A DNA stretch of 37,355 nt from an uncultured Oscillospiraceae bacterium. Lineage in GTDB: Bacteria > Bacillota > Clostridia > Oscillospirales > Oscillospiraceae. The DNA is taken from contig CANRMY010000022.1 of the NCBI GenBank assembly GCA_947631845.1, positions 1 through 37,355 of the forward strand. The letters are read 5' to 3'. Of this stretch, positions 501 through 29,663 are shown piece after piece. The position numbers and the translations under genes are program-made. Positions within the stretch are counted from its first letter, which is position 1. Each line of letters opens with the position of its first letter. Under the pieces are notes generated by a model, which searched no databases, was not told the DNA's origin, and saw only the letters and a list, made by a program, of their open reading frames with translations.

Positions 501-511
501 GGAGGGTGAAC

Positions 512-7729: not shown

Positions 7730-8500
7730 TCAATTCAGCGTTTCGGTCATGCTGTGGACGTACTCGCCCACGTACCGGGGGGCGTCCTGCTTATAGCGCT
7801 CGATGAGCCGTACGATGGCGGAGCCGACGATGGCCCCGTCGGAGAGAGCGGCCATTTTGTGGGCCTGCTCCGGGGTGGAGATACCGAAGCCCACGGCCAC
7901 GGGCAGGCGGGAATTTTCCCGGATGACCCGGACGATGGCCCCCACGTCGGTGGTGATTTCCTGTCGGACGCCGGTGACGCCCAGGCTGGAGACAAGATAG
8001 ATGAAGCCACGGGCCTCCCGGGCGATCATGGCCACCCGGTTTTCCGAGGTGGGGGCGATCATGGAGATGAGATCCACGCCGTATTTTTCGCACAGGGCGG
8101 AGAACTCCCCCTTCTCCTCGAAGGGGATATCCGGGAGGATCAGGCCGTCGATGCCGATCTTCTGGCAGGTGGAGATGAATTTCTCCGCGCCGTAGGAGAA
8201 GATCACGTTGGCGTAGGTCATGAAGACCAGGGGGATCGTCACATCCCGGCGCAGCTCCCGCACCAGGTCAAAGATTTTGTCGGTAGTGACGCCGCCCCGG
8301 AGCGCCCGGAGGGACGCGCCCTGAATCACAGGCCCCTCGGCGGTGGGATCGGAGAAGGGGATGCCCAGCTCAATGAGGGTGGCGCCGTTTTTCACGCATT
8401 CCCGCGCGCAGGCGGCGGTAGTTGCCAGATCCGGGTCGCCGCAGGTCAAAAAGGGGATGAAGGCCTTGCCATTTTCAAAGGCGCTGTGGATATTACTCAT
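7730..8500 (-). CDS. trpA: Tryptophan synthase alpha subunit
   Basis: The 256-aa TrpA cleaves indole-3-glycerol phosphate to indole and glyceraldehyde 3-phosphate and passes indole through a tunnel to TrpB. The catalytic-Glu motif [19 protein letters not shown] near the N-terminus, the [12 protein letters not shown] loop and the phosphate-binding GFGIS and GSAIV segments are all visible, and the length is normal. The frame is open far upstream, but the ATG at 8500 follows GGGAGG by 6 nt and overlaps the trpB stop by 8 nt, which suits translational coupling of the two subunits. It is the last gene of the operon; a terminator follows at once. Confidence 0.96.
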
Positions 8501-9677
8501 GAAGATCCTCCCCTCTGTAGCGGGCGATGGCGGCGCAGTCCTTGTCGCCCCGGCCGGAGATGGTGATGACCAGGAGCTTGTCCCGATCCATGGTGGGGGC
8601 CAGCTTCCGGGCGTAGGCCACGGCGTGGGCCGACTCGATGGCGGGGATGATGCCCTCGGTGCGGGCCAGATACTCAAAGGCCTCCACGGCCTCCTCGTCG
8701 GTGACGGGCACATACTCCGCGCGGCCCGTGTCGTGGAGCCAGGCGTGCTCCGGGCCGATGCCGGGGTAGTCGAGACCGGCGGAGATGGAGTACACCGGCG
8801 CGATCTGGCCGTATTTGTCCTGGCAGAAGTAGGACTTCATGCCGTGGAAGATGCCTAAGCGGCCCGTGGCCACGGTGGCCGCCGTCTCGAAGGTGTCCAC
8901 CCCCCGGCCCGCCGCCTCACAGCCGATGAGCCGGACGGAGGGATCGCCCAGGAAATGGTAGAAGCTCCCGATGGCGTTGCTGCCGCCGCCCACACAGGCC
9001 AGGACGGCGTCGGGGAGACGGCCCTCGCGCTCCAGAAGCTGCTGGCGGATCTCTTTGGAGATCACCGCCTGGAAGTCCCGGACGATGGTGGGGAAGGGGT
9101 GGGGGCCCATGACGGAGCCTAAGCAGTAGTGGGTGTCGGAAACGCGCCGGGTCCACTCCCGCATGGCCTCGGAAACGGCGTCCTTCAGGGTGGCGGTGCC
9201 GGTGGTGACGGGGATCACGTCGGCGCCCAGCAGGCGCATACGGTAGACGTTCAGCGCCTGGCGCTTTGTGTCCTCCTCGCCCATGAAAACCACGCACTCC
9301 ATGCCGAAAAGCGCCGCCGCCGTGGCGGTGGCCACGCCGTGCTGGCCCGCGCCCGTCTCGGCGATGAGCCGGGTCTTGCCCATCTTTTTGGCTAAGAGCG
9401 CCTGGCCCAGTACGTTGTTGATCTTGTGGGCGCCGGTGTGGTTCAGATCCTCCCGCTTTAAATAGATCTTCGCGCCGCCCAGATCCTTTGTCATCTTCTC
9501 GGCGTAGTAGAGCCGGGAGGGCCGGCCCGCGTACTCGTTGAAGAGGGTCGTGAGCTCCCGGTTAAACTCGGGGTCGTCCTTGAAGCGGTTATACGCCTCT
9601 TCCAGCTCAATGACGGCGTTCATCAGCGTCTCGGGGATGTACTGGCCGCCGTGGATGCCGAAGCGTCCGTTTGTCAT
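8493..9677 (-). CDS. trpB: Tryptophan synthase beta subunit
   Basis: The 394-aa PLP enzyme condenses indole with serine to form tryptophan. The cofactor lysine lies in HTGAHKINN, the phosphate-binding GGGSNAIG loop is present, and the N-terminus [14 protein letters not shown] is typical of the canonical TrpB1 type that pairs with TrpA. Length matches the family. The ATG overlaps the trpF stop as ATGA. Confidence 0.97.
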
Positions 9678-10288
9678 ATGTCTCCGTCCTTTCGCGCGGC
9701 CGCCACGGCCGCCAGGATTTTGGATCTGTCCTTGATCCTATCTGTCTCCACGCCGGAGGAGATGTCCACGCACCAGGGGTGCAGGGCCTCCACGGCGGCG
9801 GGGATAGTTTCGGGCATCAGGCCGCCGGCCAGAATGTAGTCCCGCCGGGCGGACCGTATGAGCGACCAGTCAAAGGCCGCGCCGGTGCCCTGGCCGTTGT
9901 CCAGAAGCACCAGATCCGCGGAGGACTTCTCCGCCGCGGCAAGGTCGGCGGGGCCGCCGATCTGGAAGGCCTTCCAGACCGTGAGGCCGGGGGCGGCCCG
10001 CCGGAGGGCGGCGATGTAGTCCTCGTCCTCGCCGCCGTGGAGCTGGGCGATCCGGATGACGCCGGAGAAGAAGAGATCGGCCACCGTGTCCACGGAGCTG
10101 TCCACGAAAACGCCCACCGGGGCGATCTCCCGGGAGAGCCTTTGCCGCAGCTCGTGGGCGCGGCGGGGCGTGACGCTCCGGTGACTTTTGGGGAAGTCGA
10201 TGACAAAGCCGGCAAAATCGGGCTTCGCCTCGTTCGCGTATTGGATATCTTCGGGCCTCTTAAGGCCGCAGATCTTGATTTTTGTCAT
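9674..10288 (-). CDS. trpF: Phosphoribosylanthranilate isomerase
   Basis: This 204-aa (beta/alpha)8 enzyme performs the Amadori rearrangement of phosphoribosylanthranilate. The start [15 protein letters not shown] contains the catalytic cysteine (C7), and the general-acid aspartate lies in PVGVFVDSS. Phosphate-binding loops ILAGGL and DISSGVE are at the C-terminal end. The frame extends upstream into trpC, but the ATG at 10288 overlaps the trpC stop as ATGA and gives the normal length. Confidence 0.95.
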
Positions 10289-11073
10289 TGGGCGGCCTCC
10301 CGCATATGCGCCAGCAAGGCGGCTTTGTCTTTGGCCCGCATCAGGGATTCGCCCACCAGGGCCGCGTCCGCGCCGATGGCCCGCAGGGCGGCGGCGTCCG
10401 CCGGGGTCTTGACGCCGCTCTCGGCCACATAGAGGCACGTGGGCGGGATCAGATCCCGGAGACGGGCGGCGTTTTCAAAGTCCACGGAGAAGTCCTTGAG
10501 ATTTCTGTTGTTCACGCCGATGATCTTTGCCCCGGCGCTGACGGCGGAGCGGATCTCCGCGCCGTCGTGGGCCTCCACCAGGGCGGCCAGGCCCAGGGAG
10601 GAGCAGATCTGCAAATAGTTTTCGATGGTTTTCGTGTCCAGCAGGGCGCAGATCAGCAGGACGGCGTCGGCCCCCATGGTTTTCGCCTGGTAGATCTGGT
10701 ACGCGTCCACGGTGAAGTCCTTGCGGAGCATGGGCGTCTTGATGGCGGCGCGGATGTCCCGGAAGATCTGATCGGAGCCCAAAAACCACTTGGGCTCGGT
10801 GAGGCAGCTCACCGCGTCGGCTCCGGCGGCCTCATAGGCCCGGGCGATGTCCAAATAGGGGAAATCCGGGGCGATCAGCCCCTTGGAGGGGGAAGCCCGC
10901 TTCACCTCGCAGATGAAGCTCAGACCCGGTCTCCGGAGGGCGTTTTCAAAGGCCGCGCCGCCGGCGGCCCCGCCCCGCAGGGCCAGCTCCCGCATGACCT
11001 CCAGATCGCACGCTTCTGTGTCCGCCTCCACGCGCTCCCGGGCGTGGGCGGCCAGCTTGTCTAAGATGGTCAT
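10285..11073 (-). CDS. trpC: Indole-3-glycerol phosphate synthase
   Basis: The 262-aa enzyme closes the indole ring. Typical TrpC motifs are FICEVKRASPSKGLI (catalytic lysine), CLTEPKWFLGS, MLRKDFTVDAYQIYQA, and GVNNRNLKDFSVD. It is single-domain, not fused to TrpF. Its ATG lies 1 nt after the trpD stop, and its own stop overlaps the trpF start. Confidence 0.96.
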   Translation of the reverse strand: MTILDKLAAHARERVEADTEACDLEVMRELALRGGAAGGAAFENALRRPGLSFICEVKRASPSKGLIAPDFPYLDIARAYEAAGADAVSCLTEPKWFLGSDQIFRDIRAAIKTPMLRKDFTVDAYQIYQAKTMGADAVLLICALLDTKTIENYLQICSSLGLAALVEAHDGAEIRSAVSAGAKIIGVNNRNLKDFSVDFENAARLRDLIPPTCLYVAESGVKTPADAAALRAIGADAALVGESLMRAKDKAALLAHMREAAQ

Positions 11074-11074
11074 G

Positions 11075-12100
11075 TCAGGCGTCCGCGCGGTTGGAGACTT
11101 CGATGAGCTTCTCCAACGTTTTGGCGGCCGCGCCGGAGTCGATGAGGGAGGCGGCCAGGGAGAGGCCCTCCCGCCAGGAGGCCGCCTTGCCGCCGATATA
11201 GAGGGCCGCGCCGGCGTTCAGCAGCACCGCGTCCCGCTTGGGACCCTTCTCCCCGGCCAGGATAGCCCGGGTGATGGCGGCGTTCTCCACCGGGGTGCCG
11301 CCCACCAGGTCGGATTTTTGACAGCGGGTAAGGCCGAAGTCCTCCGGGGCCACGGTGTAGGATTTAAACCAGCCGTCCTTGAACTCGCAGACGCGGGTGG
11401 GGGCGGAGGCGGAGATCTCGTCCAGCTTATCCTGGCCGTAGACCACCATGCCCCGCTCCACGCCCAGGCTGATCAGCACCTGGGCCAGAGGCTCCACCAG
11501 ATATTCGTCGTAGACGCCCAGAAGCTGCATTTTGGGACTGCCGGGGTTGGTGAGGGGGCCCAGGATGTTGAACACCGTGCGGAAGCCCAGCTCCCGGCGG
11601 ATAGCGCCCACGTATTTCATGCTGGTGTGGTACTTCTGGGCGAAGAAGAAGCACATGCCGGCCTCCTGAAGGAGCTCCGCGCATTTTTCCGGGCTCTGGT
11701 CGATGTTGACGCCCAGGGCCTCCAGACAGTCGGCGGTGCCGCACTTGGAGGAGGCGGCCCGGTTGCCGTGCTTGGCCACCTTCATGCCGCCGGCGGCGGC
11801 CACCAGGGCGCTGGTGGTGGAGATGTTGAAGCTGCCGGCTCCGTCCCCGCCGGTACCCACGATCTCAAAGAGGGGCATGTCCACGTGGACTTTTGTGGCG
11901 TGGTCGCGCATGGCGGCGGCACAGCCGGCGATCTCGTCCGACGTCTCGGCCTTGGCGCTCTTGGTGGACAGGGCCGCCAGAAACGCCGCGTTCTGGGTCT
12001 GGCTTGTCTCGCCGCTCATGATCTCGTTCATGACGGCGTAGGCCTCGTCATAGGTGAGATCCTGCTTGGTGACGATTTTTGCGATGGCTTCCTTGATCAT
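11075..12100 (-). CDS. trpD: Anthranilate phosphoribosyltransferase
   Basis: The 341-aa enzyme attaches phosphoribosyl from PRPP to anthranilate. The PRPP-binding motif [14 protein letters not shown], the [12 protein letters not shown] anthranilate site and the metal-binding segment are present. An in-frame GTG at 12109 lies too close to the ribosome site; the ATG at 12100 sits 10 nt after AAGGAG, which overlaps the trpG stop codon. TrpD is not fused to TrpG here, unlike in enterobacteria. Confidence 0.95.
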
Positions 12101-12112
12101 GATCCACACTCC

Positions 12113-12679
12113 TTACAGAGATAAAAAATTCTTCAAAATGGCTTTTCCCTCCGGCGTCAGAATGGACTCCGGGTGGAACTGGACGCCGAACAGGGGGTAG
12201 GCGGTGTGCTGTACCGCCATGATCTCCCCGTCGCCGGTGCGGGCGGTGACCCGAAGACAGGCGGGCATCGTCTCCGGCAGGGCGGCCAGGGAGTGGTAAC
12301 GGGCCACCTGGATCCGTTCGGGCAGGCCCCGGAACAGGGGACAGGCGGGATCCAGCGTCACCTCCGACTGCTTGCCGTGCATGAGGCGCCGGGCGTGGCC
12401 CACCGTGGCCCCGTAGGCCTCGCAGATGGCCTGATGGCCCAGGCAGACGCCCAGGGTGGGGACGGTCCGGCCCAGGATTCTCGCCGCCTCCACGCAGATG
12501 CCGGCGTCCCTGGGATAGCCGGGGCCGGGGGAGAGGATGATGTGGGAGGGACCCAGCGCGGCGATCTCCTCCACGGTCATGGCGTCGTTGCGGACGACCC
12601 GGATATCCGGGTCAAGCTCCCCCACATACTGGTAGAGGTTGTAGGAGAAGCTGTCGTAATTGTCAATGAGAAGCGTCAT
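12113..12679 (-). CDS. trpG: Anthranilate synthase glutamine amidotransferase subunit
   Basis: The 188-aa class I amidotransferase supplies ammonia to TrpE. It has IDNYDSFSYN at the start, the oxyanion loop LSPGPGYP, the nucleophile in LGVCLGHQA (C79) and the catalytic His/Glu in FGVQFHPES. Such subunits often also serve para-aminobenzoate synthase (PabA), and no separate pabA is in the window. The frame is open upstream inside trpE; the ATG overlapping the trpE stop (ATGA) gives the family length. Confidence 0.95.
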   Translation of the reverse strand: MTLLIDNYDSFSYNLYQYVGELDPDIRVVRNDAMTVEEIAALGPSHIILSPGPGYPRDAGICVEAARILGRTVPTLGVCLGHQAICEAYGATVGHARRLMHGKQSEVTLDPACPLFRGLPERIQVARYHSLAALPETMPACLRVTARTGDGEIMAVQHTAYPLFGVQFHPESILTPEGKAILKNFLSL

Positions 12680-14145
12680 TCTATCCCCTCCTGGGCGATC
12701 TCCAGGGCGCGCACCACGGCCTTGGCCTTGTTGACGCACTCCCGGTACTCGTTTTCCGGCACGGAGTCGGCCACAATGCCGGCCCCGGAGCGGACGTAGA
12801 CCTTGCCCTCCCGCTTGTAGGCGATGCGGATGGCGATGCAGGTGTCCAGGTTGCCCGAAAGATCGATGTAGCCGATGGCTCCGCCGTAGATGCCCCGGCG
12901 GCAGTCCTCCAGCTCGTCGATGATCTGACACGCCCGGAGCTTGGGCGCGCCGGACAGGGTGCCGGCGGGAAGAATGGCCTCCACGGCGTCCAGAGCATCG
13001 CGGTCGGACCGTATCCGGCCCCGGACGGTGGAGCCGATGTGCATCACGTGGGAGAAGCGGTGGATGCCCATGTACTGCTCCACCTCCACGGAGCCGAACT
13101 CGGAAATTTTACCGATGTCGTTCCGCCCCAGATCCACCAGCATGTTGTGCTCGGCCCGCTCCTTCTCGTCCGCCAGGAGCTCCGCCTCCAGCCGCCTGTC
13201 CTCCTCGTCCGTGGCGCCCCGGGGGCGCGTCCCGGCCAGGGGGAAGGTGTGGAGAATGCCGTCCTCCAGCTTTACCAGCGTCTCCGGGGAGGCCCCGGCG
13301 ATCTCCAGCTCATTGCCGGAGAAGTAGAACATGTAGGGGGAGGGGTTGACGGTGCGCAGGACCCGGTAGGCGTCGAAGAGACTGCCCTCGAAGTCCGCCT
13401 CCAGGCGGTTGGACAACACCACCTGGAAGATGTCGCCCTCGTAGATGTGCTCCTTGGCCCGCTCCACCATGGAGCAGAAGCGATGTTCGTCAAAGAGGGT
13501 GCGGATCTGGCTGGTCATGCGGCCGGCGGGCGGCTCCGGGCCCACGGGCCCCCGCAGAGCGGCGGCAATGGCGGCGATCTCCCGCTCCGCCCTGGCGTAG
13601 CCGGCCTCCGGGTCATCCAGGGGGACGGTCACCAGGACGGTCAGCTTCTGCCGGAAGTTGTCAAAGGCGATGACCTTGTTGAAAAGCATCAGGTCCAGAT
13701 CCTGAAAGCCCTCGGTGTCCTTCGCCTTCAGATGAAGCGTGGGCTCGGCGTATTGGATGTAGTCGTAGCCGAAATAGCCCACCAGCCCCCCGGTAAAGGG
13801 CGGCAGATAGGGAAGGCGCGGGGCGCGGCGCTCCCGGAGCAGCTGGCGCAAAACGGCCCGGGGATCCGCGTCCCGGGAGACGGTCTCGCCGTCCCGCTCC
13901 GTCAGCACCACCCCGTCCCGGGCGGTGACGCACAGCTCCGGGTCGATGCCGATGAAGGTGAAGCGGCCCCAGCGCTCCTGGGCCTGGGCCGATTCCAGCA
14001 GAAAGCACGGCCTGTCCCGGAACCGGCGCAATGCCTCGATGGGCGTGATCGCGTCGCTCATGAACTCCGCCGACACCGGCGCGACCCGGTACTCGCCGCT
14101 TTTCGCCAGCTCCCTGAATTCGGATAGGGTGGGCCTCAATTTCAT
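12676..14145 (-). CDS. trpE: Anthranilate synthase component I
   Basis: The 489-aa chorismate-using enzyme makes anthranilate with TrpG. The N-terminal domain carries the tryptophan-feedback motif FLLESAQ (about residues 48-54), which supports TrpE over PabB. The C-terminal domain has IASPETL-like GASPETLVKL, PLAGTRPRG, and the GTLSGAPK and GAGIVADS motifs of chorismate-binding enzymes. It is the first gene of the seven-gene operon and starts at an ATG 6 nt after GAGGGAG. Confidence 0.96.
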   Translation of the reverse strand: MKLRPTLSEFRELAKSGEYRVAPVSAEFMSDAITPIEALRRFRDRPCFLLESAQAQERWGRFTFIGIDPELCVTARDGVVLTERDGETVSRDADPRAVLRQLLRERRAPRLPYLPPFTGGLVGYFGYDYIQYAEPTLHLKAKDTEGFQDLDLMLFNKVIAFDNFRQKLTVLVTVPLDDPEAGYARAEREIAAIAAALRGPVGPEPPAGRMTSQIRTLFDEHRFCSMVERAKEHIYEGDIFQVVLSNRLEADFEGSLFDAYRVLRTVNPSPYMFYFSGNELEIAGASPETLVKLEDGILHTFPLAGTRPRGATDEEDRRLEAELLADEKERAEHNMLVDLGRNDIGKISEFGSVEVEQYMGIHRFSHVMHIGSTVRGRIRSDRDALDAVEAILPAGTLSGAPKLRACQIIDELEDCRRGIYGGAIGYIDLSGNLDTCIAIRIAYKREGKVYVRSGAGIVADSVPENEYRECVNKAKAVVRALEIAQEGIE

Positions 14146-16136: not shown

Positions 16137-17732
16137 TCAGCCGCGGGCCTGCCCCGCGGTGGTCTTGATGTCGCCGAGATACGACCCGTCAGGGGCGAGC
16201 TTCGGCCCGTCGTAGTGGCAGGCGCAGAAGTGGCCGGGCTCGATCTCCTTCAGCTCCGGGCACACGCGGGAGCACTTCTCGGTGGCCATGTAGCACCTGG
16301 TATGGAACTTGCAGCCCGTGGGGGGCTTGATGGGACTGGGGATGTTGCCCTCAAGGGTGATGCGCTCCTTGGAGGCGGAGTCCGGATCGGTGGTGGGAAT
16401 GGCGGACAGCAACGCCACGGTGTAGGGGTGGCGGGGATCGCGGAAGATGGTCTCGCTGTCGCCCAGCTCCACCACGTTGCCCAGGTACATGACGCAGATG
16501 CGGTCGGAGATGTACTTGACCACGCTCAGGTCGTGGGAGATGAACATGTAGGTCAGGTTCTGCTTCTCCTTCAGCTCCTGCAGAAGATTGATGATCTGGG
16601 ACTGAATGGACACGTCAAGGGCGGAGACGCACTCGTCGCAGACGATGAACTTGGGCTGGACGGCCAGGGCCCTGGCGATGGCCACGCGCTGGCGCTGGCC
16701 GCCGGAGAACTGGTGGGGATAGCGGTGGAGCATATACTCCTGAAGTCCGCATTCCTCCATGGTCTTGATGATATGCGCGCGCATCTTGTCCGAGCCGTGC
16801 TTATAGAACTTGTGGGTCAGCAGGCCCTCCTCGATGATCTGCCCGATGGTCATACGGGGGTTCAGGGAGGAGTAGGGGTCCTGGAAGATGATCTGCAGGT
16901 CCTTACGGAAGAGCCGCATCTCGTTGTATTTGAGGCGGCTCAGATCGATACCCTCGTCACGCATGGCCTCGTATTTGTCAAACTCCGGATCGCCCTTATG
17001 GGAGGCGCGCAGGGTGTTGAGCTCCCCGGTGATCTGGTCGCACACCTTCTGGCAGGCGTCGACTTCAGCCTTGGCGGCGTCCAGGGAGGGCTTCAGGGCG
17101 GCGGCCTTCTTTTTGGCCTTGGCGTCCCCGGCGGCGCTGTCCACGGCGGCGTCGTACTCAAGCTTCACGGTGTTGTACTTCTCACGGGCGGACTTGCGCT
17201 TGAGATTGGCCTCGTACTCCCGCAGGAGGAGCTCGCAGCCCTTCTGCTCGTCCACGGCGAAGAAGCCGCCCAGGATCTTGACGATGTGGTTAAGGCAGGT
17301 CTCCTCGTCGCATTTGGCCAGCGTCTGCTCCTGGAGCGTGTAAAAGTCAGCCTTGTCTTCGCCGCCGGCTTCCTCCACCTTTTTCGCCTTTTCAGCCGCC
17401 TTCTGGCTGGCCTTGTGGAGGGCGGATTTATATTTGTGCAGATTCTTTATGGTACTGCGCACATATTCCGGGGCCGCGTCGGCGAGAGTGGAGCCGTAGT
17501 ACATGGTGGTGCCGGCGGTCTGAGGATAGAGCTGCAACAGCACGCGCCCGAAGGTGGACTTGCCGCAGCCGGACTCGCCCACGACGCCCAGCGTCTCGCC
17601 CTCGTAGATGTCCAGGGAAATATCCTCATTCGCGCGGACGTAAAGCTGCTCCTTCTGGAAGATAGAGGTCTTTGCCACAGGAAAATATTTTTTCAGATTA
17701 CTTATTGACAGTAATTTTTTTGTGCTGTTCAC
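16137..17732 (-). CDS. oppF: Oligopeptide ABC transporter ATPase (OppF/DppF) with a long internal insertion
   Basis: This 531-aa ATPase is about 200 residues longer than usual OppF (about 310-330). Core motifs are intact: Walker A GESGCGKST (52-60), Q-loop FQDP (283-286), signature SGGQRQR (343-349), Walker B FIVCDE (362-367) and H-loop SHD (399-401). The extra part, about residues 80-268, lies between Walker A and the Q-loop and is highly charged, Lys/Ala/Glu-rich and probably helical or coiled coil. The C-terminal Cys set (C474, C480, C487, C491) matches the region that binds a 4Fe-4S cluster in related DppD/OppD proteins. The GTG start has a perfect AAGGAGGTGA site and overlaps oppD by 35 nt. 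It powers peptide uptake together with OppD. Confidence 0.92.
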   Translation of the reverse strand: MNSTKKLLSISNLKKYFPVAKTSIFQKEQLYVRANEDISLDIYEGETLGVVGESGCGKSTFGRVLLQLYPQTAGTTMYYGSTLADAAPEYVRSTIKNLHKYKSALHKASQKAAEKAKKVEEAGGEDKADFYTLQEQTLAKCDEETCLNHIVKILGGFFAVDEQKGCELLLREYEANLKRKSAREKYNTVKLEYDAAVDSAAGDAKAKKKAAALKPSLDAAKAEVDACQKVCDQITGELNTLRASHKGDPEFDKYEAMRDEGIDLSRLKYNEMRLFRKDLQIIFQDPYSSLNPRMTIGQIIEEGLLTHKFYKHGSDKMRAHIIKTMEECGLQEYMLHRYPHQFSGGQRQRVAIARALAVQPKFIVCDECVSALDVSIQSQIINLLQELKEKQNLTYMFISHDLSVVKYISDRICVMYLGNVVELGDSETIFRDPRHPYTVALLSAIPTTDPDSASKERITLEGNIPSPIKPPTGCKFHTRCYMATEKCSRVCPELKEIEPGHFCACHYDGPKLAPDGSYLGDIKTTAGQARG

Positions 17733-18711
17733 TCGTCCTCACCTCCTTTTCCGGATAGAAGCATCTGATATACTGATCGTTGCCGAACTTTTGAAGCTCC
17801 GGCTCCTGCTCCAGGCATTTCTTCGTGGCGTAGGGGCAGCGGGGCGCGAATTTACAGCCCTTTGGCAGGGCCAGCGGGTGAGGGACCACGCCCTGAATGG
17901 GCTCCAGCTTCTCGCCCTTGCTGTCTAAGCGCGGGATGGACTTCATCAGGCCCTCGGTATAGGGGTGGGAGACGGTGTTGTTGGTGAAGATCACCCGGGC
18001 GGGGGCCTGCTCCACCACCTGGCCGCAGTACATGACGGCCACGTCGTCGGCCATTTCGTTGATGACGCCCAGATCATGGGTGATGAAGATGATGGCGGTT
18101 CCCTTCTCCTTCTGGAGCTCATTCATGAGCTTGAGGATCTGGGCCTGAATGGTCACGTCCAGGGCCGTGGTGGGCTCGTCGGCGATGAGGATCTTGGGCT
18201 TGCACGCCAGGGCCATGGCGATCATGACGCGCTGGCGCATACCGCCGGAGAGCTGGTGAGGATATTGCCTGATGACGGCCTCCGGGTTGGGGATCTGCAC
18301 GTCATAGAGCATCTTCAGCGCTTCCTGATGGGCCTGCTTCTTGTTCATGCCCTGGTGGATCATCAGCGGCTCGGAGAGCTGCCTGTCCACGGTAAACACG
18401 GGGTTCAGGCTGGTCATGGGCTCCTGGAATATGACGGAGATCGCGTTGCCTCGGATGTGGTACATCTCCTCGGCGGACAGCTTCGTCAGGTCCTTGCCCT
18501 CGAAAAGCACCTCGCCGGACTCGATGTAGCCGTTGTCGTCAAGGAGCTGCAGGATGCTCATGGCGGAGACGGACTTGCCGGAACCGGACTCGCCCACGAT
18601 GCCGATGGTACGTCCCGGCTCCAGGGAGTAGGTCACGTCGTTGACGGCCTTGACGATTCCCTTTTTTGTTTTGAAGAAGGTGCGCAAATGCTTTACTTCC
18701 AAAAGTGCCAT
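17698..18711 (-). CDS. oppD: Oligopeptide ABC transporter ATPase (OppD/DppD)
   Basis: The 337-aa protein has normal family length: Walker [10 protein letters not shown] near residues 39-47, Q-loop [10 protein letters not shown], signature LSGGMRQRV, Walker [13 protein letters not shown] and H-loop THDLG. The C-terminal oligopeptide/dipeptide domain contains the Cys-rich [10 protein letters not shown]...KKC stretch. It lacks the insertion seen in its partner OppF, so the heterodimer is asymmetric. The ATG follows AAGGAGGG, 14 nt after oppC. Confidence 0.94.
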
Positions 18712-18725
18712 ATCTGTCTCCCTCC

Positions 18726-20702
18726 TTACTTTTCAGCGCTGGACTTGGGGTCCATCACGTCGCGGAGCGCGTCGCCGACGATATTGATGCAGATGGTGGT
18801 CACGGCCAGGAACAGCGAGGTGAAGACCCACTCCCACCAGAACGCGTTGATGATCGTGGCGTTGTTGGCGCCGTTGAGCATGTTGCCCCAGGTGGGACGC
18901 GGGTACTGGACGCCGAAGCCCAGGTACGAGAGGCTCGACTCGGTCAGCATACACGTGCCGAAGTCCAGCATCAGCGACACCAGGATGACGCTCATGACGT
19001 TGGGCAGGATGTGCTTGAAGGCGATGACGCTCTCCTTCACGCCCATGCTCTTGGCCGCCGTGACGTACTCACTCTCACGGGCCAGCAGTACCTGTCCGCG
19101 CACAAGGCGGGCAAGACCCGGCCAGGTCAGAACGCCCAGGATGCACATGATGATGAAGATGCGCATGGTCTCCGAAATGTTCATGTGGCCCATGACCGCC
19201 GAGAGGATCATGGCGAAGGGCAGGAACGGGATGGCGGAGAAGATCTCGGCCACGCGCATGAGGAAGATGTCAATCTTCCCTCCGAAGTAGCCGGAGACGC
19301 ACCCGATGATGATGCCGATGACGCTGGAGATGATGACGGCCACAGCGCCTACGGTCATGGTCATCTTGCCGCCCTGGATGATGCGCTGGAAGATGTTGGC
19401 GCCCCGGGTGTCGGTGCCGAAGAGGTAACCCTTCAGGCCCCAGCTGGTGACCAGCTGTCCGGCGTCGTTGACGCCGTAGGTCTGGTTCGAGCCGTGATAG
19501 AGCTTTGTCACCCCGGCGGTGGATTTGGGCAGGTCGGTCTGGTCAAGCTCGTTCTGGCCCCAGGAGTAGACATTGCCCTTGTTGGTCAGGGCGCTGTAGT
19601 GGTACGCGCCGCCGACGATCTGAACATAGTCCTCGTCCTCGGCCAGGGTGGGCGCGGGGGTGCAGTCCAAATTGAAGTCGCCGGAGAAGGCCACACTGCC
19701 GTCGGACAGGGTGAGGGCCACGCTCTTGTTGGTGGCGGTGAGGGCCTCGATGGTCCGGTCGCCCAAAAATTCACTGGTCTTCACAGCGGGGCTGTTCACG
19801 TTGTCCTTGACCAGGGTGAAAAGGTCGCGGGAGCCGGTGTAGATGGTCTTGTGCTGGCCGTTGAGGCCCACGATGTAGTTGAGGGTGAAGGCGATATCGT
19901 CCAGGGACGGGGTGCGCAGGAAGAGGTCCATGTTGGCGTAGGTCCTCTTGTTGCCCCACAGGTGGAAGCTGCCGTCGTCCATCAGGATGCAGCTGATCTG
20001 ATAGCCGCAGATGAGCTTCTTCACGTGGCTCACGTCCACGCCGTTCTGGCGCAGGTCCTCGCTCAAAAATTCAATGTTGGGGTCGGTCTCCTTGCCCCGG
20101 GCCAAATACTCCGCCTCGGTGTCGTACTGGCCCAGCTGCCACGCGCCCCAGCCGTAGATCTTGCCGTCCTCGCCGATGGCGATGATGTGGTCATAACCGG
20201 CTGCCACCATGGCGATCTTGGCGTTCCGGACCTCCTCGGGGATATCCCCGATGTCGATGCCCGTGGTACCCAGCTGGGTGGAGCCCCACACGTACACCTT
20301 GCCGGCGTTGGAGAGGCCCACGGTGAAGGTGCCGTAGCCGTCGATGGTCTTGATGTCGTTTTTCAGCTCCTTGGGGACCTTCATAAGGCTCATGTTGGGG
20401 GCCATGTTCTGCTGGGTCACGTCGGTGTAGCTGTCCTTGTACTTGGGCATGAAGAGGGGCCCCACGAACATGACGATGAACATGATGATCAGCAGCGCCA
20501 GCGCGCCCACGGCCAGCTTGCGCTCGAAGAAATTGTTCACTATCTGCCGGGAGGGGCTGACGATGGCCTCCACGTCGGCGGCTCTGGCCGCGTCCATCTC
20601 GTCGGCAAACTCAGCGGAGGCAGAGTGGAACAGATGTCCGAACCAGCCTCGGCGGGCGGGCTTGGAGGCCGCCTTTTTCTTTTCTTCCGTCTTATTGCTC
20701 AT
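18726..20702 (-). CDS. oppC: Oligopeptide permease OppC with an inserted RCC1-like beta-propeller domain
   Basis: The 658-aa protein is about twice the length of a usual OppC (about 300). The order is a cytoplasmic N-tail (1-60), TM1 (about 62-84), an inserted region (about 104-425), the canonical OppC entry motif FGTDTRGANIFQRIIQGG (428-445), four to five TM helices, and the EAA loop EYVTAAKSMGV...HILPN (545-568). The insertion carries RCC1-type repeats: GKVYVWGSTQLG (134-145), GKIYGWGAWQLG (180-191), GSFHLWG (244-250), GSVAFSG (335-341), GNVYSWGQNELDQ (376-388) and GQLVTSWG (415-422). By OppC topology it lies outside the membrane, where it could meet OppA, peptides or wall components. The permease core looks functional. 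Confidence 0.93.
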   Translation of the reverse strand: MSNKTEEKKKAASKPARRGWFGHLFHSASAEFADEMDAARAADVEAIVSPSRQIVNNFFERKLAVGALALLIIMFIVMFVGPLFMPKYKDSYTDVTQQNMAPNMSLMKVPKELKNDIKTIDGYGTFTVGLSNAGKVYVWGSTQLGTTGIDIGDIPEEVRNAKIAMVAAGYDHIIAIGEDGKIYGWGAWQLGQYDTEAEYLARGKETDPNIEFLSEDLRQNGVDVSHVKKLICGYQISCILMDDGSFHLWGNKRTYANMDLFLRTPSLDDIAFTLNYIVGLNGQHKTIYTGSRDLFTLVKDNVNSPAVKTSEFLGDRTIEALTATNKSVALTLSDGSVAFSGDFNLDCTPAPTLAEDEDYVQIVGGAYHYSALTNKGNVYSWGQNELDQTDLPKSTAGVTKLYHGSNQTYGVNDAGQLVTSWGLKGYLFGTDTRGANIFQRIIQGGKMTMTVGAVAVIISSVIGIIIGCVSGYFGGKIDIFLMRVAEIFSAIPFLPFAMILSAVMGHMNISETMRIFIIMCILGVLTWPGLARLVRGQVLLARESEYVTAAKSMGVKESVIAFKHILPNVMSVILVSLMLDFGTCMLTESSLSYLGFGVQYPRPTWGNMLNGANNATIINAFWWEWVFTSLFLAVTTICINIVGDALRDVMDPKSSAEK

Positions 20703-22018: not shown

Positions 22019-24307
22019 TTAGTCGGCCCAGATGGCGTCGGCCATATCCCTCAGGTAGGCGGCGGGATAACCGTTGTCATACTGCTCGGGATCGTTGTCC
22101 CAGTTGAAGGAGTAGTCGTAGGCGGCGCTGGTGAAGCCGGTGGCGAGGTTGAAGGCGTTGTAGACGGGAACGCCGCTGTAGCCGGCTTCATAGAGGCCCT
22201 GATAGTACTCGTCCATCATCGGGTTGAAGTCGCCGAAGGTGTTCTGCACCACCATGCCGATGGCCTTGATGTTGTCGCTCTCCTGGAAGCCGGTGACCAG
22301 CATGTCGGTGAACTCGTTCTCGGTGGTGCCGTACCAGTTGATGACCAGCGGCATGTAGTAGTAGTCGCCGACCTTCTCAACCTTGTAGGCGCCGTCCTTG
22401 GAGGCCCAGTTGATCTCGTCCTCGTCGATCTGCTCGGCGGAGAGCTTCTTGTAGCGGACGCCGTCGCCGGTGTAATGGGTGCCGTCGGCGTTGTAGCACC
22501 AGCCGTACTCCTCCAGGAGCGCGATGGCGGTGTCGGCGGAGGTGGGATAGGTGTTCAGAACCATGCCGTCAGCCACAGCGGCCTGATACATCCAGGAGCC
22601 GGTGTAGTAGGGGCCGTCAACAACGCCGCCGTAGCCGCCGGTGAAGTCCTTGGCGAAGGTGGCGCGGTCCATGCAGTAGGCGATGGCCTGACGGACCTCG
22701 GTGAAGCGGGCGGGACCCAGGTCGCAGCGGAAGGCCAGCTTACCGTAGCCGGCGCGGCTGTAGTGGGTGGCCACGTACTTGTCGGGGTTGGCGGCCACGA
22801 GAGCCAGGGCCTCGTCGGTGGCGGTGCCGCCGGTGACGCCGGCGAGAACGTCAACGCCGCCGGACTGGAAGTCCTGAAGCTGAGTCTGGGAGATGATGCG
22901 CTTGTAGACGACCTTGCCGATCTGAGGCTTGACGCCCTCATAGTTGCCCTTGAAGTAGGGGTTGACCACCAGGGTGGCGACCTTGGAGGCCTGGTCGAAG
23001 TTGTCGATCATGTAGGGGCCGGAAACGGGGTAGGTCTGGTCGTTGTTGTCGACAGCGGCGGTGATCTGAGCGGCGTGGGTGTAGGTGTCGCCGTTCTTGG
23101 CGTACCAGGCGTCGGTCAGGTAGCAGCCCTCGCCGTCATCCTTGATGTCCACATCGTCGCCCAGCCAGAGCTCCATGGACTCGGGGGAGAAGCCGGCGTA
23201 GGTGATGCCGTAGAAGTAGGGATAGTAGTCGGAGGTAACGGTGACGGAGAAGGTGTAGTCGTCCAGAAGACGGACGCCGGAGAAGGTCCGGGACACGCCC
23301 TCGGCGCCGGCGTTGGTGCCGTCATAGGCGTGATACGCCGCATAGCCCTGAATAGAAAGGCCGGAGGTGCCGTTGCCGCCCGCCTGGACGGACACGGGGC
23401 CGCAGTTCATCAGCAGGGTGACCAGGTAGTTCTTGGCGGTGATGGGGCTGCCGTCGGAGAGCTTCAGGTCGTCCTTGATCTTGATGGTGTAGGTGTGGGA
23501 GCCGTCCTCGTTGTCGGTCTCGGTGAGGTTGTCAACAACGGTGGGGTTCACCGTATAGCCGCCCTCCTTGGTGACGGAGACGGTCTCGAGGCCGGAGATC
23601 AGGCTGTTAATATCCAAATCGGAGGCGGGAGGATTGCCGCCGCCCCAGGTAGGATAACGGAAACGGCCGTTGAGCTCGGTGGAGTTACCAACGATGATGT
23701 CGTTGTCCGCCTTCTCGCTGGTCCATTCGACCAGAGCGTTGATGGGGCTCCAGAAGGGGTTGGTGGGATGCTCGCTGACGCCCTTGATCTGCGCGTTGTA
23801 AATGTCATAGTACTCGTTGGAGTACAGGGGAACCTCGGGCATCAGGTAGTTCCAACGGGTGACGTAATACTTCCACCAGGTGGCGTACACGTCGTCCTCG
23901 GTCTTCCAGCGGCCGCCCTCGGGGACCTGGGTGTTGTACACCATGGCGTAGGAGAGGAAGTTCATGCCCAACTCATAGTCCACGCCGTCAAAGGTGGCGT
24001 GAGCAAGGCCGGTCTCGGGATCCTCGGTGACCTGGTCGATGGTGAAGCCCTTGCCGTAGGTCACGTACACGTCGGTGTAGTCGACGCCGTACTCGGACTG
24101 GCTCAGGATAAAGCGCCTGTCGTCAACAGGCTCGACCCACTCATCGGAGGTGTCGTTGCCGCTTGTATCGTTGCCGCTGGTGTCGTTGCTGCTGGTGTCT
24201 TTGCCGGTGTCGTTGTTGGTGGTGTCGTCGCCGGTGCCGCCGCAGGCAGCCAGGCTCAGGACCATCACCAAAGCAAGCACCAGGCAAAGAAGCTTGGACT
24301 TTTTCAT
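22019..24307 (-). CDS. oppA: Oligopeptide-binding lipoprotein (OppA/SBP_bac_5)
   Basis: The 762-aa protein starts with a lipoprotein signal peptide and lipobox LSLAAC (lipidated C22). A low-complexity Asp/Thr/Asn/Ser linker with repeated NDTSG follows (about 25-55), then a family 5 solute-binding region. Recognisable segments are SDGSPITAKNYLV, SVTSDYYPYFYG, YMIDNFDQASK, VVNPYFKGNYEG and FTEVRQAIAYCMDRATFAKDF-like core pieces. Family members are usually 520-620 aa, so this one carries about 150 extra residues, perhaps to fit large peptides or the decorated permease. It is anchored outside the cell and delivers peptides to OppBC. Start: ATG 8-9 nt after AGGAGG. Confidence 0.93.
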   Translation of the reverse strand: MKKSKLLCLVLALVMVLSLAACGGTGDDTTNNDTGKDTSSNDTSGNDTSGNDTSDEWVEPVDDRRFILSQSEYGVDYTDVYVTYGKGFTIDQVTEDPETGLAHATFDGVDYELGMNFLSYAMVYNTQVPEGGRWKTEDDVYATWWKYYVTRWNYLMPEVPLYSNEYYDIYNAQIKGVSEHPTNPFWSPINALVEWTSEKADNDIIVGNSTELNGRFRYPTWGGGNPPASDLDINSLISGLETVSVTKEGGYTVNPTVVDNLTETDNEDGSHTYTIKIKDDLKLSDGSPITAKNYLVTLLMNCGPVSVQAGGNGTSGLSIQGYAAYHAYDGTNAGAEGVSRTFSGVRLLDDYTFSVTVTSDYYPYFYGITYAGFSPESMELWLGDDVDIKDDGEGCYLTDAWYAKNGDTYTHAAQITAAVDNNDQTYPVSGPYMIDNFDQASKVATLVVNPYFKGNYEGVKPQIGKVVYKRIISQTQLQDFQSGGVDVLAGVTGGTATDEALALVAANPDKYVATHYSRAGYGKLAFRCDLGPARFTEVRQAIAYCMDRATFAKDFTGGYGGVVDGPYYTGSWMYQAAVADGMVLNTYPTSADTAIALLEEYGWCYNADGTHYTGDGVRYKKLSAEQIDEDEINWASKDGAYKVEKVGDYYYMPLVINWYGTTENEFTDMLVTGFQESDNIKAIGMVVQNTFGDFNPMMDEYYQGLYEAGYSGVPVYNAFNLATGFTSAAYDYSFNWDNDPEQYDNGYPAAYLRDMADAIWAD

Positions 24308-26190: not shown

Positions 26191-27591
26191 ATGAAAAGGG
26201 TTCAGTTTACAGAGACGGTGCTGCGGGACGCCAACCAATCCCTGATGGCTACGCGCCTGCCCTACGCCGATTACGAGGCGATCCTGCCCACCATGGACAA
26301 GGCCGGGTATTACTCGGTGGAGTGCTGGGGCGGGGCCACCTTCGACAGCTGCCTTCGGTATCTGGGGGAGGACCCCTGGGAGCGGCTGCGGAAGATCCGG
26401 GAGCGGATGCCGAATACCCGGCTCCAGATGCTCCTGCGGGGCCAGAACCTCCTGGGCTACAAGCACTACCACGACGACGTGGTGGAGGAGTTCGTCCGGC
26501 TGTCCATCAAGAACGGCATCGACGTGATCCGCATTTTCGACGCCCTCAACGACTTCCGCAACATCAAAACGGCCTTTGAGGCCACCAAGAAGTACGGCAC
26601 CGAACGCACCGTGGCTTCCGGGTGCATCAGCTACACCCAGAGCCCCGTCCACACGGTCAAGAAGTATGTGGAGATGTGCCGGGAGCTGAAGGAGATGGGC
26701 TTCGACACCATCTGCCTGAAGGATATGGCCGGCACCATGTCCCCCGCCGAGGCGGAGGGGCTCATCAAGGGGATCAAGGACGAGGTGGGCGACATCCCCC
26801 TGATCCTCCACACCCACTGCACCACGGGCATGGCGTACATGACGCTTTTGAAGGCCGTGGAATCCGGCGTGGATGTGATCGACACCGCCACGTCCTGCTT
26901 CTCGGGCGGCACCAGCCAGGCCGCCACCGAGACGCTCTACTACGCCCTGAGCCAGCTGGGCATCGAGACGGGCCTGGACGAGAAGGTGATCAACAAGGTC
27001 AACGATTTCTTCAAGCCCGTGAAGCAGAAATACATCGACTCCGGGCTCATCAATCCCAAGTCCATGGGCACCGACGCCCAGGCGCTGGTCTACAAGGTCC
27101 CCGGCGGGATGCTCTCCAACATGATCGCCAACCTGAAGGACATGAACGCCATGGACAAGTTTGACGAGGCCCTGGTGGAGATCCCCAACGTGCGCCGCGA
27201 TCTGGGCTATCCCCCGCTGGTGACGCCCCTCAGCCAGATGGTGGGCAACCAGGCGGTGGTCAACGTTTTGATGGGCGAGCGGTACAAGCAGATCTCCAAC
27301 GAGATCAAAAACTACTTCAAGGGCGAGTACGGCATCGCCCCGGCCCCGGTGAGCCAGGAGCTTCAGGATCGGATCATCGGCGCGGGCAACGAGCCCGTGG
27401 ACTGCCGGATCGAGGACGCCAGGCGCACCGGGAAGGAGTTTGCCGACGCCAAGTCCGCCCTGGGGGATCTGGCGGAGTGCGAGGAGGACTACATGAGCTG
27501 GATCTGCTACCCCGACCAGACCATGAAGTTCGTGAAGGAGCGGCGGGAGCGGGAGGAGCACCACGTCCGCTACTCCATCGTGGAGGAGTGA
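26191..27591 (+). CDS. oadA: Oxaloacetate decarboxylase-type carboxyltransferase, alpha subunit without biotin domain
   Basis: The 466-aa protein matches the carboxyltransferase part of OadA and transcarboxylase 5S. It starts with FTETVLRDANQSLMATR, has the TICLKDMAGTM motif with the active-site lysine, metal ligands in HTHCTTG, and the C-terminal conserved carboxylase domain with PGGMLSNM and PPLVTPLSQMVGNQAV. It moves carboxyl from oxaloacetate (or a related 2-oxo acid) onto biotin. The usual C-terminal biotinyl domain is absent and is supplied by a separate gene two positions downstream. With the beta and gamma genes it forms a membrane complex that couples decarboxylation to Na+ export. 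The ATG follows GGAGG. Methylmalonyl-CoA decarboxylases use a different alpha subunit, which favours the Oad reading. Confidence 0.87.
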   Translation: MKRVQFTETVLRDANQSLMATRLPYADYEAILPTMDKAGYYSVECWGGATFDSCLRYLGEDPWERLRKIRERMPNTRLQMLLRGQNLLGYKHYHDDVVEEFVRLSIKNGIDVIRIFDALNDFRNIKTAFEATKKYGTERTVASGCISYTQSPVHTVKKYVEMCRELKEMGFDTICLKDMAGTMSPAEAEGLIKGIKDEVGDIPLILHTHCTTGMAYMTLLKAVESGVDVIDTATSCFSGGTSQAATETLYYALSQLGIETGLDEKVINKVNDFFKPVKQKYIDSGLINPKSMGTDAQALVYKVPGGMLSNMIANLKDMNAMDKFDEALVEIPNVRRDLGYPPLVTPLSQMVGNQAVVNVLMGERYKQISNEIKNYFKGEYGIAPAPVSQELQDRIIGAGNEPVDCRIEDARRTGKEFADAKSALGDLAECEEDYMSWICYPDQTMKFVKERREREEHHVRYSIVEE

Positions 27592-27596
27592 GCCGG

Positions 27597-27941
27597 ATGG
27601 ATCTGAAAATGAATCTGGGCGACGCGGCCATTGACGCCGTCATGGGCTACGCCATCGTCTTTCTGGGCATCGCCCTTTTAGTGCTGGTGGTGGTGCTGAT
27701 GGGCCGGATCATGAGCCGCAAAAAGCCCGCCCCCGCCGCCCCGGCGGCGGAGCGGCAGCCCGTCCCCGCCCCGGCCCCCGTCCCCGCCGGCCCCACGGCC
27801 CCCGGTACGGCGGGCGATCTGAAGCTCTACGGCACCCCCGACCGGGACGCCGCCATGATCATGGCCATCGTGGCCGACGAGCTGAAAATACCCCTCAATG
27901 AACTGCGCTTCATCTCAATTCGGGAGGTCAATAAGAAATGA
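27597..27941 (+). CDS. oadG: Decarboxylase gamma subunit (OadG family)
   Basis: The 114-aa protein has one N-terminal membrane helix (about 16-38), a basic stop (RIMSRKK), a Pro/Ala-rich linker and a small C-terminal domain (DRDAAMIMAIVADELKIPLNELRFISI). This is the OadG layout, in which the tail holds the alpha subunit to the membrane. It starts 5 nt after oadA, and its TGA overlaps the ATG of the biotin carrier gene. Confidence 0.85.
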   Translation: MDLKMNLGDAAIDAVMGYAIVFLGIALLVLVVVLMGRIMSRKKPAPAAPAAERQPVPAPAPVPAGPTAPGTAGDLKLYGTPDRDAAMIMAIVADELKIPLNELRFISIREVNKK

Positions 27942-28336
27942 AATATTTAGTCACACTCAACGGAAAGACCTACGAGGTGGAGGTGGAGCACGGCGAGGCC
28001 ATGCTCCTGGACGAATATGACGCCGCCGCCCCGGCCGGGAAGACCCCCGCCGCGCCCGCCGCTCCGGCGGCCCCCGCGCCCGTGCCCGCTCCGGCGCCCG
28101 CGCCCGCCCCGGTGGTGGCCGGCGGCGAGAGCGTCAACGCCCCCATGCCGGGGGACATCGTGAAGATCAACGTGAAGGCCGGCGACGCGGTGAAGGCCGG
28201 GGACGTGCTGGTGGTGCTGGAGGCCATGAAGATGGAGAACGAGATCATGGCGCCCCGGGACGGCACCGTGGCCCAGGTGGTGACCCAGAAGGGCGCCAAG
28301 GTGGAGACCGGCTCGCCCTTAGTGGTGCTGGCATAA
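27938..28336 (+). CDS. Biotin carboxyl carrier protein of the decarboxylase
   Basis: The 132-aa protein has a short N-terminal beta segment (MKYLVTLNGKTYEVEVE), a flexible Pro/Ala linker (about 33-62), and a biotinyl domain (about 64-132) with the EAMKMENE motif; K98 is the biotinylated lysine. The swinging domain carries CO2 from the alpha subunit to the beta subunit. Similar free-standing carriers occur in methylmalonyl-CoA and glutaconyl-CoA decarboxylases. ATGA overlap with oadG supports co-translation. Confidence 0.9.
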   Translation: MKYLVTLNGKTYEVEVEHGEAMLLDEYDAAAPAGKTPAAPAAPAAPAPVPAPAPAPAPVVAGGESVNAPMPGDIVKINVKAGDAVKAGDVLVVLEAMKMENEIMAPRDGTVAQVVTQKGAKVETGSPLVVLA

Positions 28337-28349
28337 GGGGGCGCGATCC

Positions 28350-29663
28350 GTGAACAACATCCTGGAGACCCTGAAAAAGCTGTGGATGGAATCCGGCTTT
28401 ATGGGCTTCTTTGAAAACGGCGGCTGGAAGTCCTTCATCATGATCATCGTGGCCCTGGCGCTGCTGTACCTGGGCATCAAGAAGAAGTTCGAGCCGCTTT
28501 TGCTGGTGGGCATCGCCTTCGGCACCCTGCTCACCAATCTGCCGGGCGCGGGCCTGTACCACATGGAGATGTGGGACGCCTACGTCTATGAGTGCCCCTA
28601 CGACGCGGCCAACGAGGCCATCCTTTACGATGTGGAGGAGGAGCGCGTCCTCTCCGTGGAGGAGTATATGGCCTCCCTCCCGGAGGACGCCCAGGAGCCG
28701 GAGATCATTGAAAAGCTCTCCTTCACCGACATCGCCCATATCGGCGGGCTTCTGGATATCCTGTACATCGGCGTCAAGGCCGGCATCTACCCCTGCCTCA
28801 TCTTCATCGGCGTGGGCGCTATGACCGACTTCGGCCCCCTGATCGCCAACCCCAAGAGCTTCTTCCTGGGGGCGGCGGCCCAGTTCGGCGTGTTCTTCGC
28901 CTTCTTCGGGGCGGTGCTCCTGGGCTTCAACGGCAACCAGGCCGCCTCCATCGGTATCATCGGCGGCGCGGACGGGCCAACGGCGATTTTGACGTGTATG
29001 CTCCTGGCCCCGGCGCTCCTGGGCCCCATCGCCATCGCCGCCTACTCCTATATGGCCCTGATCCCCATGATCCAGCCGCCCATCATGCGGGCGCTGACCA
29101 CGGAAAAGGAGCGAAGCGTCAAGATGGAGCAGCTGCGGGAGGTCTCCAAGACCGAGAAGATCGTCTTCCCCATCCTGGTGGCCGGATTCGTGATCCTGCT
29201 CCTGCCCTCCACCGCGCCCCTGATCGGGTGCCTGATGTTCGGCAACCTCCTCAGAGAGACGGGCGTCACCGAGCGCCTTTCCGACGTGGCCCAGAACGCT
29301 CTGATGAACATCGTCACGCTGTTTTTGGGTATCTCCGTGGGCGCTACCACCGTGGCCGCCCGGTTCCTCACCGTCAACACCCTGAAGATCGTCCTGCTGG
29401 GCCTCATCGCCTTCTGCTTCTCCACGGTGGGCGGCTTGCTGGTGGGCAAGCTCATGTATAAGCTCTCCGGCGGGAAGATCAACCCCCTCATCGGCGCCGC
29501 CGGCGTCTCCGCCGTGCCTATGGCCGCCCGGGTCGCCCAGGTGGAGGGCCAGAAGGCCAACCCCTCCAACTTCCTGCTGATGCACGCCATGGGCCCCAAC
29601 GTGGCCGGCGTCATCGGCTCCGCCATCGCCGCCGGATTCCTGATCAAGGTGTTCGGCGCGTAA
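28350..29663 (+). CDS. oadB: Na+-pumping decarboxylase beta subunit (OadB family)
   Basis: The 437-aa integral membrane protein carries the OadB/GcdB/MmdB signatures: GVGAMTDFGPLIANP, the intramembrane NGNQAASIGIIGGADGPTAI segment with the conserved Asp used for Na+ translocation, and the C-terminal GVSAVPMAARVAQ...HAMGPNVAGVIGSAIAAG. About nine to ten membrane helices are expected. It decarboxylates carboxybiotin and exports Na+. A hydrophilic acidic stretch after TM2 (about 70-118, with YDVEEERVLSVEEY) is longer than in the Klebsiella-type subunit. GTG start with AAGGGGG upstream, 13 nt after the biotin carrier gene. Confidence 0.92.
   Translation: MNNILETLKKLWMESGFMGFFENGGWKSFIMIIVALALLYLGIKKKFEPLLLVGIAFGTLLTNLPGAGLYHMEMWDAYVYECPYDAANEAILYDVEEERVLSVEEYMASLPEDAQEPEIIEKLSFTDIAHIGGLLDILYIGVKAGIYPCLIFIGVGAMTDFGPLIANPKSFFLGAAAQFGVFFAFFGAVLLGFNGNQAASIGIIGGADGPTAILTCMLLAPALLGPIAIAAYSYMALIPMIQPPIMRALTTEKERSVKMEQLREVSKTEKIVFPILVAGFVILLLPSTAPLIGCLMFGNLLRETGVTERLSDVAQNALMNIVTLFLGISVGATTVAARFLTVNTLKIVLLGLIAFCFSTVGGLLVGKLMYKLSGGKINPLIGAAGVSAVPMAARVAQVEGQKANPSNFLLMHAMGPNVAGVIGSAIAAGFLIKVFGA

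Follow-up and report, generated by a model that had tools for sequence, protein, structure and literature searches.

The OppC permease encoded in the window (the whole 37,355-nucleotide stretch of DNA analyzed here) carries an RCC1-type beta-propeller in the loop between its first two transmembrane helices, and the operon to which it belongs is a real, conserved variant of the Opp importer that is undescribed as far as we searched: the literature searched, which comprised neither preprints nor most subscription journals, yielded no account of an ABC transporter permease with an RCC1 domain. A type I importer is usually depicted as consisting of a binding protein, two bare permeases and two ATPases. 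The whole operon group described here combines a propeller of a protein-binding type in the permease with a helical bundle in the ATPase OppF.

Gene organization and domain order of OppC

The genes of the operon and their features are listed in Table 1. The oppC gene begins at an ATG and is read from 20702 down to 18726 (window ORF list), with the ribosome-binding-type stretch GGAAGGAGG upstream of its start; 18 bp separate it from oppB, which precedes it, and 14 bp from oppD, which follows. By Pfam, the five opp proteins of the window are one binding protein, two permeases and two ATPases with oligo_HPY, the composition of an Opp/Dpp importer. OppC itself belongs with the OppC/DppC family, as it has OppC_N (1.5e-7, residues 49-102) followed by BPD_transp_1 (5e-31, residues 463-653) with an EAA-type loop, and an OppC fold. 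Its best NCBIfam model is Opp4C, at 280 bits versus a cut-off of 350, so it is an OppC relative that is none of the named OppC/DppC/NikC equivalogs. The insert matched RCC1_2 (4e-20) and RCC1 (4e-7), and the WD40_RLD/RCC1-like match of OppC (7e-27) falls below that model's own curated cut-off.

An earlier sequence-only reading of this DNA had placed RCC1-type repeats between TM1 and the OppC core, and the ORF, the Pfam matches and the structural model all bear this out. The four repeats that it quoted lie at residues 134-140, 180-186, 244-250 and 376-382, and the GTDTRG motif and EAA-type loop (EYVTAAKSMGVKESVIAFKHILPN), which it had called intact, are indeed so when read directly in the OppC sequence.

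The G+C content of the propeller region (0.617) matches that of the OppC core (0.611) and of the window (0.623), which rules out a gene piece of foreign base composition. The neighboring genes (7730-14145, minus strand, and 26191-29663, plus strand) are a group for tryptophan biosynthesis and a set for a sodium-pumping oxaloacetate decarboxylase; nothing evident ties either of them to the importer.

Table 1. Coordinates of the opp genes in the window and of their features.
Feature	Position	Strand	Evidence
oppF, ATPase with inserted four-helix bundle, 531 aa	16137..17732	-	ABC_tran and oligo_HPY; predicted model
Predicted four-helix bundle, Walker A to Q-loop of OppF, residues 98-244	about 16953..17492 (helices 17001..17441)	-	
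oppD, ATPase, 337 aa	17698..18711	-	ABC_tran and oligo_HPY
oppC, permease with extracellular RCC1-type propeller, 658 aa	18726..20702	-	ORF, Pfam, AlphaFold2 model
Canonical OppC core with EAA-type coupling loop, residues 432-658	18729..19409	-	
OppC fixed-length junction from last blade to GTD motif, residues 423-431 (LKGYLFGTD)	19410..19436	-	Gap-free in 43/43
OppC seven-bladed RCC1/BLIP-II-type propeller, residues 117-422	19437..20354	-	
OppC TM1, residues 62-84	20451..20519	-	Model helix 62-84; hydropathy peak 57-89; OppC_N 49-102
oppB, partner permease, 347 aa	20721..21764	-	BPD_transp_1 1.2e-39
oppA, lipoprotein-type binding protein, 762 aa, circularly permuted	22019..24307	-	SBP_bac_5 3e-32; lipobox-like LAACGG
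OppA body, residues 204-744	22076..23698	-	Window 202-744 vs L077 OppA 62-614, 48% identity
Relocated C-terminal piece of OppA, residues 112-193	23729..23974	-	L077 OppA 649-718, 50% identity, 4e-19

Structure of the propeller and its junction

In an AlphaFold2 model of OppC built from a 43-row alignment, the propeller (residues 117-422) forms seven blades of three strands each, with pLDDT values of 80-95 over ten-residue blocks, most of them at 85-95. Seven blades of RCC1-type repeats place the domain among the RCC1/BLIP-II propellers, and they rule out a partial or open propeller. The count of at least six repeats in the sequence-only reading thus becomes a complete propeller, and the structure prediction that it had recommended for the 658-aa protein returned seven blades and not a bladeless fold. 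With the insert skipped, the model could be aligned over the full 278 residues of OppC from E. coli (chain 8z21_B); the top structural match of the propeller was BLIP-II. In phmmer searches against solved structures, the C-terminal part of the protein matched OppC/DppC chains and the insert matched UVR8, RCC1 and BLIP-II. Eukaryotic RCC1 carries out guanine nucleotide exchange on Ran and binds chromatin, and RCC1-like repeat proteins were reportedly reviewed by Stevens and Paoli in 2008.

The propeller would be on the extracellular side, because the insert sits in the TM1-TM2 loop and the TM1-TM2 regions are periplasmic in the E. coli Dpp structure, as described in PMC12136057. The outward-facing insert proposed earlier agrees with this position and with the alignment to 8z21_B. 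The same paper describes a TM1-TM2 scoop of DppB that enters the cleft of DppA (PMC12136057). From the final Gly of the last blade to the GTD motif there is no indel in any of the 43 proteins (x-G-x-x-G-[YFH]-x-x-G-[TS]-D), and conservation among them is 0.78 in the junction, 0.73 in the permease core and 0.48 in the propeller. Based on this gap-free, conserved junction, we expect that the propeller is held in a fixed orientation relative to the channel. The long inter-blade loops are poorly conserved (means of 0.27-0.44).

Distribution and phylogeny

By Pfam, OppC_N, RCC1_2, WD40_RLD and BPD_transp_1 were found in all 43 RCC1-OppCs of our comparison set, and RCC1 in 41 of them. These proteins are 34-82% identical to the window OppC and their group is spread through the phylum; the set excludes L001, L039, L002, L010 and L013 (the window's gene, its 97% identical copy, or a duplicate of L044) and the partial OppC of L055. 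Judged by how much of the profile each match covers, RCC1-OppC occurs in 30 of the 394 genomes drawn from the order (43 matches less 13 core-only), 17 of 391 of the class (30 less 13) and 14 of 398 of the phylum (15 less one), in draws that overlap and each include the window's genome, and of whose matches the Pfam scan covered part. The group covers the window's class together with genomes of the same phylum beyond that class. The earlier reading had named recurrence in many species as support, and the architecture does recur in many genomes, in the 43 relatives and in all three draws.

The best ortholog of the window OppC is 97% identical and lies in another assembly. Named ortholog contigs are from MAGs labelled Oscillospiraceae, Clostridia or Lachnospiraceae, one of them from sheep rumen. 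RCC1-OppC is single-copy in the window's genome, where no further RCC1_2 match (E <= 0.001) was found; none of the 14 control genomes had one. The order oppA-B-C-D-F on one strand was found in all 27 first loci, and the second set of 31 loci showed no other opp gene order within the reach of their contigs and ORFs.

A tree of the OppC core (89 rows, after L158, L169, L110, L032, L035 and L038 were removed by the core-motif or length filter) has a single branch that separates the 55 RCC1 rows from the 34 other OppCs (100/100; 100% of 200 bootstrap trees). This one-branch grouping, in an unrooted tree, makes a single origin possible, and RCC1-OppC may have arisen once. On the same tree the OppC cores of L007, L008 and L009 sit on a long branch (0.84). 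Their OppB and OppC core are less window-like than those of L080-L082 and L091, and their OppA and propeller are not, which suggests that the permease pair was replaced or has evolved at an accelerated rate.

The comparators were the best core-only or insert-bearing OppC matches and are thus a non-random choice. Nine of the ten that we scanned are enlarged (441-781 aa), the tenth being of ordinary length (300 aa), and no Pfam domain above cut-off was found in the inserts. L097, L100, L103-L106, L108, L110 and L111 have large inserts of this kind, located between OppC_N and BPD_transp_1. Judging from these sequences, the OppC loop between TM1 and TM2 appears to be a hot spot for insertion.

OppA and neighboring genes

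The match to the L077 OppA (Table 1) is permuted, which rules out that the window OppA is merely an "extended" protein. Among 56 OppA ORFs, 13 are permuted, 42 are sequential (some of these being partial ORFs) and one was too short. All permuted OppAs fall inside one 21-row group on the OppC-core tree, which also has seven sequential ones. By sequence, the nearest solved relative of OppA is 9p48, named as the peptide-binding protein OppA. The cargo would be a peptide, based on family names and on M3 peptidase genes, the latter also standing beside comparators: by blastp, an M3-family peptidase gene is near 14 of the 58 RCC1 loci (seven Pfam-confirmed), L004, L086, L088 and L091 among them, and near 5 of the 17 comparators.

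The ORFs of at least 120 aa at the first 27 loci included no additional conserved surface gene next to the operon, and the widest clusters of neighboring ORFs at these loci resemble, in our judgment, shadow frames of the opp genes. A conserved accessory gene was considered and rejected, as the widest plausible cluster was the M3 peptidase, at 8 of 27 loci and shared with 5 of 17 comparators.

The OppF insert

The spacing from Walker A to the Q-loop is 223 aa in the window OppF versus 42-44 aa in 14 of the 17 comparators. The extra segment is predicted to form helices at residues 98-121, 130-158, 162-199 and 204-244, with pLDDT of 79-98 over ten-residue blocks, most above 90. By the looser of two motif patterns, which overstates the spacing of L099 (96 versus 39 by the stricter one), the insert is present in 52 of 53 measurable RCC1 operons and in none of the 17 comparators; the stricter pattern gave a measurement in 15 of the 27 RCC1 operons and in 14 of the 17 comparators. 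Among the 394 genomes of the order, 30 have RCC1-OppC, 28 the OppF insert and 27 both. As for the mismatches, G104 and G305 are contig ends and G225 has an enlarged OppF of 538 aa that the insert search missed. The mismatch in G408 is a real exception: this is L088, the sole operon with a propeller but without the OppF bundle (336-aa OppF).

Pfam gave scattered matches to the insert, each of them shared by at most 3 of 21 members, and the insert of the window OppF had no match; these 21 were drawn from 23 located insert segments (L009 and L078 left out; L085, L088, L089 and L093 skipped). The VIA-align matches of OppF were filled by its ATPase domains, with the bundle itself barely probed. The bundle probably serves regulation or a partner protein, a regulatory partner being the simplest guess. 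DppC pairs with DppF, according to PMC12136057, and by analogy OppC would pair with OppF, which would put the propeller and the bundle on the same half-transporter, outside and inside the cell.

Two further features of the ATPases were observed. Cysteines 474, 480, 487 and 505 of OppF are invariant in 35 proteins, a part of the OppFs obtainable, and their spacing is that printed for the [4Fe-4S] site of DppD in PMC12136057. In addition, the window's OppD and OppF (16137-18711, minus strand) are 95-98% identical to those of L077/L078, whereas the propeller is only 37-38% identical. Such near-identity beside a divergent propeller indicates a mosaic operon and suggests that the oppDF block has been exchanged.

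Correlation of propeller and OppA distances

Pairwise distances of seven operon parts were compared in set A (n = 25), set B (n = 19) and all operons together (n = 44). These are 44 of the 58 loci: L003 (short OppA ORF) and L088 (no insert) were dropped, as were L140, L141, L144, L153, L155, L157, L161, L162, L165, L166, L168 and L169, twelve loci with incomplete, split or several OppA ORFs. An initial run on set A agrees with the later three-set analysis.

The correlation between propeller and OppA distances was 0.86, 0.92 and 0.86 (set A, set B and all, the order used throughout), each time the highest of the propeller's six values; with its own permease core the propeller gave 0.60, 0.82 and 0.70. 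With the other parts held, the propeller-OppA partial correlation was 0.72, 0.34 and 0.55, ranking second, sixth and second of 21. As yardsticks we used two contact pairs of solved importers, OppB-OppC core (partials of 0.73, 0.55 and 0.71) and OppD-OppF (0.57, 0.21 and 0.48). The partial between the propeller and the OppF insert was 0.32, -0.15 and 0.09, even though this intracellular insert evolves still faster. In set B, the propeller-OppF partial (0.36) was slightly above that of propeller-OppA.

The propeller-OppA partial was 0.51-0.57 when single operons were left out. It fell from 0.72 to 0.39 in set A and from 0.55 to 0.47 in all (41 operons left) without the long-branch loci L007-L009, and set A contains mosaic operons. 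With sequential OppAs only, it was outside the six highest, and the raw value of 0.87 exceeded those with OppB and the core. Both the propeller and OppA are extracellular and fast-evolving, so shared exposure could yield the same correlation; moreover, the inserts of other OppCs show that the loop tolerates insertion, and the propeller therefore need not contact OppA. We take the distance data as moderate support for contact between the propeller and OppA. Of the roles suggested by the sequence-only reading, OppA docking thus stands insofar as OppA tracked the propeller best in all three sets and the junction is gap-free in 43 of 43 proteins, and is weakened by the low partial in set B and the other limits just given. 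That reading also offered a peptide selectivity filter and a sensor, and the OppF bundle leaves room for a regulatory role; neither the OppF insert nor the permuted OppA figured in it.

Proposed function and alternatives

The explanation of these results that we tentatively favor is that the propeller serves, outside the cell, as a rigid platform on which the cognate OppA docks and is retained. OppABCDF is an ABC importer of the Opp type (cluster C), and a closed seven-bladed RCC1-type propeller has taken the place of the TM1-TM2 loop in its OppC. Lipid-anchored OppA would bind the cargo, and the propeller, beside the channel mouth on OppC, would contact and hold OppA, raising its local concentration and picking the cognate binding protein. 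Release of the cargo would be the task of OppB and the OppA cleft, with ATP binding driving it, as in Dpp, and the four-helix bundle of OppF, on the cytoplasmic side of the same half, would act in regulation or bind a partner protein. The fold of the propeller and the OppF bundle that accompanies it are well supported, and what we infer is the rigidity of the propeller and its contact with, and selection of, OppA.

The nature of the domain also fits a somewhat unlikely alternative, that the propeller binds a target other than OppA, such as cell-wall material, a peptide or a protein of the host or a neighbor, and so brings food or a peptidase to the transporter. BLIP-II is its top match and RCC1-type propellers are surface or secreted binders in other bacteria, including the LPxTG-anchored RCC1-repeat proteins of honeybee Bifidobacterium (PMC4449606); the poor conservation of the inter-blade loops is as expected of a diversifying binding face, and M3 peptidase genes are near some loci. 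The gap-free junction with the permease and the strongest correlation being with OppA argue against it, as do the lack of a conserved extra surface gene at the operon and the presence of M3 genes near comparators. That the propeller is instead the outer end of a sensor, altering ATPase activity through the OppC-OppF half with the bundle as its inner element, we regard as distinctly unlikely. Propeller and bundle do occur together in 27 of the 31 genomes with either and in 52 of the 53 measurable RCC1 operons, their carriers correspond to the subunits paired in Dpp (PMC12136057), and the partials with the bundle in set A and with OppF in set B are positive. However, the propeller-bundle partial is negative in set B and near zero overall, L088 has a propeller without a bundle, and the two are co-inherited in one operon group, so that their co-occurrence need not mean coupling.

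It is very unlikely that the propeller is a structural spacer or passive ornament that fills space or protects the gate: related bacteria do hold inserts without a Pfam match in the same loop (nine of ten comparators being enlarged), but both the RCC1 repeats and the junction persist in all 43 proteins, at 34-82% identity to the window OppC, in a phylum-wide group. An assembly or annotation artefact joining two adjacent genes, which the earlier reading had named as a possible refutation, is practically inconceivable. Apart from the fact that the window's genome is a 119-contig assembly we found no support for it, and it is ruled out by the architecture shared by all 43 proteins, the 97% identical copy in another assembly and the single branch that holds the 55 RCC1 rows.

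A further proposal goes beyond the docking platform. The operons might represent a distinct importer class in which the propeller is a second, captive receptor that selects one OppA and is coupled via OppC-OppF to the bundle, which we consider unlikely; the reading as a whole, in which the external binding state and internal regulation are read through one half-transporter, is just as doubtful. If the propeller does hold OppA as a docking platform, it offers a way to learn how importers of Gram-positive bacteria retain and choose the binding proteins that they anchor by lipid, as well as a ready construct with which to capture the docked state. Taken together, the propeller and the permuted OppA show that Opp parts can be extensively rebuilt and yet be kept by selection.

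Comparison with known systems

Relative to the Opp and Dpp importers of E. coli (OppBCDF/DppABCDF; 8z21, 8z1y) and M. tuberculosis (OppABCD/DppABCD), the system described here differs in three respects: a propeller of 306 residues occupies the TM1-TM2 loop of OppC, a four-helix bundle is inserted in OppF between Walker A and the Q-loop, and the OppA of the window is circularly permuted. BLIP-II (beta-lactamase inhibitory protein II, 1jtd_B) is a secreted binder according to PMC9218822, whereas the propeller of OppC is built into a membrane permease. The RCC1-repeat surface proteins of honeybee Bifidobacterium likewise have their repeats outside the cell, on average seven per domain; unlike OppC, they are LPxTG wall-anchored products of tandem genes, with no transporter in the available part of that source (PMC4449606). 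Finally, a counterpart to the window OppA exists in TpMglB-2 of Treponema pallidum, a natural circularly permuted ligand-binding protein of an ABC transporter, which binds glucose according to PMC4990184, whereas the window OppA is a cluster C binding protein.
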